Assembly (NCBI GenBank): GCA_902628195.1
Contig: CACOLY010000003.1
Span: 1-64,000, forward strand
Length of the DNA: 64,000 bases
Direction of reading: 5' to 3'
Source: an uncultured Pelagibacteraceae bacterium
Lineage (GTDB): Bacteria; Pseudomonadota; Alphaproteobacteria; Pelagibacterales; Pelagibacteraceae
Shown here: piece after piece, positions 31,688 through 34,849 of the stretch
How the letters are laid out: the number at the start of each line of letters is the position of its first letter
Numbering within the stretch: the stretch's first letter is position 1
Program-made: the position numbers and the translations under genes
Notes under the pieces: generated by a model
Told to the model about the DNA's origin: nothing
Seen by the model: only the letters and a program-made list of their open reading frames with translations
Database searches by the model: none

Positions 31688-33388
31688 ATGGAACTAAATA
31701 AAATTAATAGCTTAGTAGAACTTTTTTTTAAAAAATATAAAGAAAAAAAAGAATTTAAAAATCAACTATTTTTAAAATGGTTAAAAACAAGTGATGATGT
31801 TTTTTTTACATGGGAACAAGTAAAGGATGATATTTGTTTACTGTCCGAGTATTTAATAAAGAGATTATCTAAAGGGGACAGATGTGTTTTATTATCTGAA
31901 AATCGGCCAGAGTGGCTTATAGCGGATATAGCAATTATGAATGCAGGAGGTGTAACAGTTCCATTATTTACGACATATTCAGAAAAAGATTACGAATATA
32001 TAATTAATGACTGCAAACCAAAGATATGTATAGTTTCTAACGATATTCAATTTAAAAAAATTAAAAAGTTTATTTCAAATACAGTAGAAGTTATATCTTT
32101 TGAAAATTTTGATAAAAAAATTAAAAGTATTGAAAATATTTTAGAAAAAAATTCTCAAAAAGAAAAAATCAAAATTTCAAACAATTATAACAATGAAATA
32201 ATAAGAAAAGATCTTGCTTGTATTATTTACACCTCAGGCACAACTGGAAATCCAAAAGGGGTAATGTTAAGTCATGGAGGAATTTTGTCAAATTGTGAAG
32301 GTGCTAGAGAAATTTTAGACTCTTTAACTAAAAATGAACCTCCTGTTTTTTTAACTTGGCTCCCATTATCTCATTCATATGAACATACAGTTCAATACGT
32401 ACAAATAACTCTTGGTGCAAAAGTTTTTTATGCTGAAAGTTTGGAAAAGTTATTACCTAACATGTCAATTGCAAAACCTACAATTATGACTGCGGTGCCG
32501 AGATTTTATCAAAATTTATACAGCAAAATTTTTCTTAATTTTTCAAAACAAAAAGGTGTCAAAAAAAATTTGATTAAAAACACTATTTTAATTGGAACAA
32601 AAATTTTGAATAATGAAAAACTTAGTTTTAAGCAAAAAATAATTAATTTTTTTTGTGACTTATTAGTTAGAAGGAAAATTAAAAATCAATTTGGTGGAAA
32701 ATTAAAAGCCTTTGTTTCTGGCGGCGGTGCTTTAGACCAAAAAATAGGTGAATTTTTAAATTCTATTGGATTACCTACTTTACAAGGATATGGGTTAACA
32801 GAGGCATCACCGGTTGTTAGTTGTAATATTCCTGGAAAAATTAAAATTGAGACAGTAGGTCCACCTTTCAAAACAAACCAAATAAGAATTGCTGATGATG
32901 GTGAAATTTTAGTAAAAGGTGAAAATGTTATGCTTGGTTATTGGAATATGAAAAAAGAAACAGAGGATATAATTAGAAATGGCTGGTTACATACTGGGGA
33001 TATTGGTGAAGTAAGTAAAGAAGGTAATTTAAAAATAACTGACAGAAAAAAAGAAATTATTGTTAATCTTGGCGGGGACAATATTTCACCATCAAAAGTT
33101 GAAAATTTATTATGCTTAAATGAAAATATTAAGCAAAGCTTTGTTTACGGAGATAAAAAAACTTATTTAGTTGCTTTAATTGTAAGTGAGAGTGAAGAAA
33201 ATAAAAATGAAATTGAATTTTATATAGAAAATTTAAATAAAAGTTTATCCTTAGTGGAAAAAATTAAAAAATTTATCTTGATTGAAGAGGAATTTACAAT
33301 TGAAAATGGAATGTTGACACCAACATTAAAATTAAAAAGAAAAAAAATTTTAGAAAAATATAAAAATGATTTAGAAAAACTTTATTAA
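31688..33388 (+). CDS. AMP-dependent long-chain acyl-CoA synthetase
   Basis: IIYTSGTTGNPKGVMLSHGG, QGYGLTEASPVVS, WLHTGDIGE and ITDRKKEIIVNLGGDNISP. Confidence 0.93.
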   Translation: MELNKINSLVELFFKKYKEKKEFKNQLFLKWLKTSDDVFFTWEQVKDDICLLSEYLIKRLSKGDRCVLLSENRPEWLIADIAIMNAGGVTVPLFTTYSEKDYEYIINDCKPKICIVSNDIQFKKIKKFISNTVEVISFENFDKKIKSIENILEKNSQKEKIKISNNYNNEIIRKDLACIIYTSGTTGNPKGVMLSHGGILSNCEGAREILDSLTKNEPPVFLTWLPLSHSYEHTVQYVQITLGAKVFYAESLEKLLPNMSIAKPTIMTAVPRFYQNLYSKIFLNFSKQKGVKKNLIKNTILIGTKILNNEKLSFKQKIINFFCDLLVRRKIKNQFGGKLKAFVSGGGALDQKIGEFLNSIGLPTLQGYGLTEASPVVSCNIPGKIKIETVGPPFKTNQIRIADDGEILVKGENVMLGYWNMKKETEDIIRNGWLHTGDIGEVSKEGNLKITDRKKEIIVNLGGDNISPSKVENLLCLNENIKQSFVYGDKKTYLVALIVSESEENKNEIEFYIENLNKSLSLVEKIKKFILIEEEFTIENGMLTPTLKLKRKKILEKYKNDLEKLY

Positions 33389-33504: not shown

Positions 33505-33533
33505 ATTGACATAACGCGTATAAAAAAATAAAA
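33505..33533 (+). promoter_or_regulatory. Candidate sigma70-type promoter for the small basic peptide gene
   Basis: TTGACA followed about 17 nt later by TAAAAA, upstream of the 33586 ORF; approximate coordinates. Confidence 0.4.
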
Positions 33534-33585
33534 ATAACTTAATAGCGAATCAAACTGATTCGTTTAACTAAAAAGGGAGCTAAAG

Positions 33586-33660
33586 ATGCCTAAGAGAAGA
33601 AAAAAAGCTAAGAAAGCTAAGAAAGCTAAGAAAAAAGCTAAAAAAAGAAGAAGAAGATAA
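33586..33660 (+). CDS. Unlisted 24-aa extremely basic peptide (MPKRRKKAKKAKKAKKKAKKRRRR)
   Basis: ATG...TAA ORF with Shine-Dalgarno GGGAG 6 nt upstream, upstream promoter-like element and 5' hairpin, and a strong terminator about 20 nt downstream. Confidence 0.75.
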   Translation: MPKRRKKAKKAKKAKKKAKKRRRR

Positions 33661-33680
33661 TAAATTAGTATTCTTTTTTA

Positions 33681-33722
33681 AAAACGCTTCTCATAACTTT
33701 TGTGTGAGAGGCGTTTTTTTTT
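33681..33722 (+). terminator. Intrinsic terminator after the small basic peptide gene
   Basis: AAAACGCTTCTCA...TGAGAGGCGTTTT (one G-T wobble) followed by a T run. Confidence 0.85.
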
Positions 33723-34566
33723 AGTCCTCTATATTCTCATCATTCTCAGCAATTGGTTCATCAACATTAAGATCAGCTGTAGGAGTTTTCACAACTTGAG
33801 TGGTTATTTCTTTATTTTCTGGATTTAAATTTCTTTTAAGAGCTTTATCTAATTTTTTTTGTGTGTCTTCTAAAGAAATATTTAAGATTATTTGAAATTC
33901 AGACAATATTCTCTCATACGCTTTTTCAAAAAGTTGTCTTTCACTATAGGATTGATCAACCATAAGATCATCGCCTTTATTTAAATCTCTTACAACTTCA
34001 GCCAATTCATAGATTTTTCCAGATGAAATTTTTGCTTCATACTCTTGTGCTCTTCTACTCCACATTGACCTTTTAATTTTTGGTTTACTCTTTAAAATTG
34101 AAATACATTTATTCACTTGATTAATAGTTGCAAGTGGACGGAGATGAGATTGTTTATTTACTGGAACCATTCCATTTGCTTTATCTTTTTCAAATTTAAT
34201 TATATAAGTTTCTACATCAATTCCACCGATACTAATCTTTTTAAATTCAGTAATTTGACCTACTCCATGTTTTGGATAAACGACGTAATCTTTTATTTTA
34301 TATTCTCGTTTTTCGGTTTCTTGTTTTTTTACTTTCTTGATTTCAGGTTTTGTTTCATTAGATTTTGAAATACGTAAATTTTCTGTTTTTAATTCAGATT
34401 TTTTTTCATCGACTTTGGCTACTTTTTTTGTAACTTTTTTCTTTAATTTAGATTTAAGTAATTTCTTTTTCTTATTTTTTGAATGAGTAACTCTTTTTTT
34501 TGTTACTTTTTTTTTCTTTTTATTAAATGTTTTCTTTAAAATATTTTTCAAACTTATTTTGCTCAT
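33721..34566 (-). CDS. carD: CarD/CdnL-family transcription regulator with a Lys-rich N-terminal tail
   Basis: [55 protein letters not shown] (34566) preferred over the track start 34608; still overlaps fdxA. Confidence 0.88.
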
Positions 34567-34849
34567 CTTTATATTTTTCATGATCCGATGGAGGATCTTT
34601 TTTTGCATTTATATTCGGCCAGATTTCAGAATACTTTTTGTTGATTTCTAACCATTTTTCACTTCCAGGTTCTGTATCAGCTTTAATGGCATCAACAGGA
34701 CATTCTGGTTCGCAAACGCCACAATCTATACACTCATCCGGTTTAATTACAAGCATATTTTTACCTTCATAAAAACAATCAACAGGACATACTTCAACAC
34801 AATCAGTTAATTTACATTTGATACATTTATCGTTAACTAGATAAGTCAT
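34523..34849 (-). CDS. fdxA: 7Fe ferredoxin
   Basis: [22 protein letters not shown]...[16 protein letters not shown]. Confidence 0.95.

Follow-up and report, generated by a model that had tools for sequence, protein, structure and literature searches.

The window that we analysed, a 64,000-nt stretch of a SAR11 (Pelagibacteraceae) genome of 1.02 Mb, contains a polybasic microprotein gene at 33586-33660 on the + strand. The gene encodes a peptide of 24 aa, MPKRRKKAKKAKKAKKKAKKRRRR, with a charge of about +18. Its 12 Lys and 6 Arg residues agree with the 18 basic residues reported in the initial annotation, and the AKK-type repeat described there was recovered by TRF as a tandem of a 9-bp unit (3.3 copies, 100% match). 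The neighbours are also as first named. An acyl-CoA synthetase (AMP-binding) gene lies upstream (31688-33388, +), and carD (33721-34608, -) is the convergent partner on the other side. The carD product contains the Pfam domains CarD_C and CarD_TRCF_RID, and its start codon may be internal (MKNIKMSK).

A promoter-like TTGACA, a Shine-Dalgarno (SD) sequence and a strong terminator had been pointed out around the ORF, and each was found again. The promoter-like site on the + strand consists of TTGACA (33506-33511), an 18-nt spacer and AAAAAT (33530-33535); it scores 10/12, although three promoter-like sites were found in this AT-rich region versus 1.7±1.6 expected. A promoter match alone is weak evidence, and conservation of the site is the better argument. 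TTGACA followed by an A/T-rich -10-like tract is present at 77 of 79 genus-level loci, the two exceptions probably being L036 and L060, on contigs that stop short of the site, and TTGAC lies 76-102 nt upstream of the ATG in all 24 leaders listed from across the order. The SD sequence, GGGAG at 33575-33579 (+), belongs to a GGGAG(C/T)TAAAG-ATG arrangement found at every one of the 79 genus-level loci, and GGAG is kept at 105/105 loci of the order. The terminator hairpin (33680-33718) has 16 pairs and a T-run on the + strand; one terminator of such strength was found versus 0.1 expected, and it is matched at 79/79 genus-level loci. Judged by its symmetry, this terminator probably also serves carD. 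An AACGC..GCGTT stem is kept in other genera of one of the two families that we sampled (f1), and the other family (f2) has a different T-tailed hairpin.

Conservation at the same locus in related genomes had been proposed as a check on the gene. Every intact locus, 105 of 105 with the window counted in, has a convergent polybasic ORF 3' of carD, and the loci represent 10 genera and the two families of Pelagibacterales that were sampled. They came from a CarD search (80 loci) and from another 30 genomes in which the region 3' of carD was inspected (27 loci); the other three of these 30 assemblies gave no CarD and are outside the count. Loci cut by contig ends (L047 and L070 of the 80, and L102 of the 27) were left out of the 105, though L102 still shows the end of a polybasic ORF. 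The acyl-CoA synthetase gene is upstream in 90 of the 99 f1 loci, and the remaining nine, several of them on short contigs, are outside the neighbour count. In family f2 the flank opposite carD differs and the acyl-CoA synthetase was not seen there, yet the ORF still adjoins carD, which is thus the constant neighbour across the order. A CarD tree, built to root the change in peptide length, separates f1 from f2 and has long branches. Beside carD at 70 loci of other alphaproteobacterial families, nothing comparable to the polybasic ORF was found. Judged by carD adjacency, the gene belongs to the order Pelagibacterales alone, where the scope of the statement is the carD-adjacent place plus one narrow DNA repeat pattern, which occurs in 1 of 143 genomes, the window's own. 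A protein search with the 76-aa form missed known copies in G001 and G032, and this kind of search is therefore useless for distant homologues. A lookalike on the carD side in genome G315 (locus L167, MGKKKRKKVKKVEILRRN) was set aside; it has no SD sequence and contains Ns.

Several lines of evidence make it almost certain that the polybasic gene is real, conserved and protein-coding. Among 45 single-base codon changes between nearest-neighbour ORF pairs, 33 are synonymous, versus 16.9±2.7 expected from random placement of the same changes and a maximum of 27 across 2000 simulated trials; neighbouring pairs may share branches, so that this figure is a guide and not an exact probability. In the distinct ORFs of the genus-level set, AAA and AAG codons number 625 and AAT and AAC codons number zero. 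The lengths of the ORFs vary by whole codons, and the start, SD sequence, stop and adjoining 3' flank remain in register. The synonymous excess indicates that the amino acids of the ORF are under purifying selection. Order-wide synteny, the fixed start, SD and stop, the in-frame length changes and the synonymous excess together strongly support a monocistronic, translated gene, as the initial description of a stand-alone, expressed-looking gene had suggested. We regard the reality of the gene, coding selection, synteny and the conserved leader as close to demonstrated. A chance A-rich ORF is ruled out by the conservation and by a genome-wide count, in which the polybasic ORF is the sole one among 5,365 ATG ORFs of 20-150 aa to reach K+R of at least 0.6 (1.14-Mb genome of a genus-mate).

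The gene might instead specify a small regulatory RNA in which the ORF is incidental. The hairpin stem in the leader is kept more strictly than the body of the peptide, and the transcript folds better than its shuffles (z -4.1), with the terminator supplying much of that energy. We consider this reading extremely unlikely, since a non-coding RNA should lack the reading-frame selection that the synonymous excess reveals, the SD sequence and ATG are universal, length changes are in frame with the stop kept, and family f2 has longer coding versions. An RNA structure that is kept while the protein is not had been named as the finding that would point to an sRNA; both are conserved. A dual-function RNA is possible. 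At gathering score, Rfam matches in the window were two tRNAs alone, with nothing at the polybasic gene. Two other candidates were rejected. A leader or attenuator peptide does not fit, as the gene has its own terminator and there is no same-strand gene downstream. A phage-borne module is likewise disfavoured: there was no similar DNA in phage records, no exact match to the SD/start pattern in viral contigs and no PHROG for the peptide.

The 5' hairpin seen at first in the leader also proved to be conserved. In the window it is a computed fold, CGAATCA-AAC-TGATTCG (33546-33562, +), near the predicted 5' end of the mRNA, and its pattern is unique in the window's own genome. Among 198 genomes of the order that were searched, 75 contain the exact 7-bp pattern, each a single time, and all 75 belong to the window's genus. 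A 6-bp stem is perfect in 90/90 members of the genus, with a loop of variable sequence and length, and the 5' arm CGAATC is present in 105/105 leaders of the order. The stem is re-paired further in for three genera (g2, g3 and g4), for example as TCACTTAAA/TTTAAGTGA, and the leader stem of family f2 is GAATCA..TGATTC. An operator palindrome, in place of an RNA hairpin, is disfavoured because the spacing of the arms varies by indels and the stems are re-paired in other genera, which suits a site for a dimer poorly.

The leader may also affect translation. A second helix, CTCC/GGAG, is predicted for g2 and g4, where it would mask the SD sequence (unpaired probability 0.01-0.04), and in g1, g5 and g6 the SD is predicted to be more open (0.43-0.99). 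This difference makes translational control via the leader plausible and suggests that it differs between genera; the CTCC/GGAG helix of g2 and g4 could be a translational switch. The SD-sequestering helix was predicted for leaders L109, L110 and L112-L114 and not for the window's genus.

The peptide varies widely in length and little in character. It has 23-35 aa within the genus, 21-24 aa in g5 and g6, 31 aa in g3, 36-38 aa in g2 and 37-58 aa in g4, giving a range of 21-58 aa in family f1, and it has 76-91 aa in family f2. One of the shortest forms (L107, 21 aa) has 17 basic residues by a count made by eye. Across the order, length changes by repeat number, the charge is at least +17 and K+R is 0.53-0.86. 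The f2 sequences, at the same locus, are K/A/P-rich like histone H1 tails (e.g., MEELKVIFAKARKKAKKKAAPKKRKKAAKRKPAKKKKAAP..). Because such sequences cannot be aligned convincingly, we argue for homology of the 24-aa and 91-aa forms from their shared position and leader. Neither short nor long forms have matches in Pfam or NCBIfam (in Pfam, up to E = 1 for the window peptide and up to E = 10 for longer and other-genus forms), although profiles are weak on low-complexity sequence, and a PDB sequence search gave no chain at E up to 10, with a short low-complexity query that lowers sensitivity.

Some very small basic proteins, such as bTHX, bS22 and bL37, are ribosomal and have a near-fixed sequence. 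The size and charge of the SAR11 peptide resemble theirs, and its own promoter and order-wide conservation would also fit a small ribosomal protein, or a ribosome-assembly or hibernation protein, that binds rRNA. We nevertheless consider this unlikely. A peptide docked on the ribosome would be expected to be more rigid, and the SAR11 peptide, with 21-91 aa and free gain and loss of repeats, has neither a fixed length nor a fixed sequence across relatives. Another basic ORF of the genus, of 27 aa, does hold a constant length and is 85-100% identical in 12 genomes. There was also no sequence match to these ribosomal families (Pfam and NCBIfam at E up to 1, PDB at E up to 10, with a short query).

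Protamines are proteins of a few kDa with about two-thirds or more basic residues and no fold; they are Arg-rich and eukaryotic. The SAR11 peptide shares their size, basic share and lack of a fold, but it is bacterial and mostly Lys, and we claim no homology. We suspect that it is probably a nucleic-acid binder that resembles a protamine or the tail of histone H1. Of the two functions guessed in the initial annotation, the H1-tail-like one is thus favoured, by the 76-91-aa K/A/P-rich versions of f2 and by the drift in repeat number, and the ribosome-associated one is not. Hc2 of chlamydiae, BpH1 of Bordetella and their relatives are likewise lysine-rich, repeat-built and polycationic, and Hc2 varies in size by the number of its lysine-rich repeats (PMC2848022). 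The SAR11 peptide has the same Lys-rich low complexity with short A/K/(P,T) repeats and the same kind of length variation between relatives, but proteins of the Hc2/BpH1 type have 149-237 aa (PMC2848022), far more than the f1 and f2 forms. The KPAA-repeat C-terminal domains of AlgP and PhaF of Pseudomonas are also K/A/P-rich H1-like tails, and the KKAAPKKK repeats of f2 resemble them in composition. In AlgP and PhaF the tail is part of a larger protein that also has an N-terminal domain (PMC9239181), whereas the SAR11 peptide is free-standing. Binding to DNA in vitro has been shown for peptides with the lysine-rich KPAA repeats of AlgP (PMC9239181). As no family library or solved structure matches the SAR11 peptide, the H1-like reading draws on composition and position.

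We postulate the following mode of action. The monocistronic, order-conserved gene would produce a disordered Lys/Arg polycation (24 aa in the window) whose action most likely resembles that of a protamine or of the tail in bacterial histone-H1-like proteins. Many copies of the +18 peptide could neutralise the phosphates of nucleic acids, probably in the nucleoid, with no sequence specificity. If charge and rough length alone matter, the number of AKK-type repeats can drift, and the observation that repeat number drifts freely while charge is kept favours such a non-specific electrostatic binder. The short mRNA would start with the conserved hairpin, which probably stabilises it or tunes its translation, and would end in the terminator common to carD. 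We infer that DNA is the main target, and likewise the level of expression and a role in nucleoid compaction or charge buffering. These genomes also have genes for two or three HU/IHF-type proteins, so the peptide would not be the only nucleoid protein and would supplement the ordinary ones.

Besides DNA, a polycation binds RNA, ribosomes, polyphosphate and membranes, which counts against a reading in terms of DNA only. The main ligand might not be the chromosome at all, and the peptide could be a general partner of polyanions such as polyphosphate granules, RNA (as a charge buffer or chaperone) or the inner membrane. Among bacterial H1-like proteins, AlgP is found in association with polyphosphate granules (PMC9239181), and peptides of pure charge are promiscuous. 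Since nothing at this locus points to a specific non-DNA target, we consider a non-chromosomal ligand quite unlikely. The position of the gene raises a further alternative, in which the peptide works together with CarD or RNA polymerase; for instance, it could act at promoters as a separate copy of the lysine-rich tail found at the N-terminus of CarD. SAR11 CarD does bear such a tail, and of the two flanks of the gene, the carD one alone stays the same in both families. However, the two genes are convergent and transcribed separately, and lysine-rich tails are also found on unrelated enzymes of the genus. We therefore regard a partnership with CarD as very unlikely, and an H1-tail-like or protamine-like polycation is the reading that we retain.

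The length of the peptide is below usual gene-calling cut-offs. Its predicted tryptic fragments have 1-3 residues, and with no family match it is effectively invisible to family libraries and routine proteomics. A trypsin caveat for lysine-rich proteins was also raised by the authors of the AlgP study (PMC9239181). In the library searched we found no paper that describes the gene; the main text of a survey of SAR11 ncRNAs mentions neither carD nor lysine (PMC2704228), and the gene is not shown in main-text passages of a metatranscriptome TSS paper (PMC5069720). The bacteria concerned, SAR11, are the most abundant in the ocean, and they probably make a protamine-like or H1-tail-like polycation that trypsin-based proteomics would largely miss. 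If the peptide does bind DNA, the packing of a chromosome by charge alone in a very small cell could be tested on a minimal model; peptides that differ in repeat number would form a natural series of lengths, and the conserved leader would offer a way to study regulation. More tentatively, we speculate that every SAR11 bacterium has a chromatin peptide of a few kDa that is protamine-like and free-standing, that was reduced by genome streamlining from a longer H1-like protein and that is autoregulated via its conserved 5' hairpin leader. Few chromatin proteins of free-living cells would then be as small, and the peptide might have been overlooked as too short for gene callers and shredded by trypsin. 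This fuller account is possible, though we hold it as rather doubtful.

Other basic sequences were observed in these genomes. The 27-aa ORF mentioned above, MGYPKKHRGRRKMGSKKRRARKKNKKK, is a second basic microprotein ORF with an AGGA SD sequence, at L222:2622 on the minus strand (G003:C1:502622), and the 12 genomes that share it are genus-mates. Searches of the window's own genome assembly and of eight f2 genomes did not recover it, it has no match in Pfam, NCBIfam or PDB, and it is possibly an undescribed small ribosomal protein. In a Pelagibacter genus-mate, Lys/Arg-rich N-terminal tails of 40-60 residues are present on metabolic enzymes, as on CarD. The proteins with these tails are an aldehyde dehydrogenase (PF00171), an acetyl-CoA synthetase (PF00501, PF16177) and a 399-aa protein without a Pfam match, and the loci are L240:17161-18897 (-), L198:19805 onward (+) and L252:18073-19269 (-). 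At a contig edge of the window's genome (L002:1-129), a protein that is cut off ends in a Lys-rich C-terminal tail, ..KKVVKKKKAAKKKKAKKKRRKKK, with a long ORF downstream.
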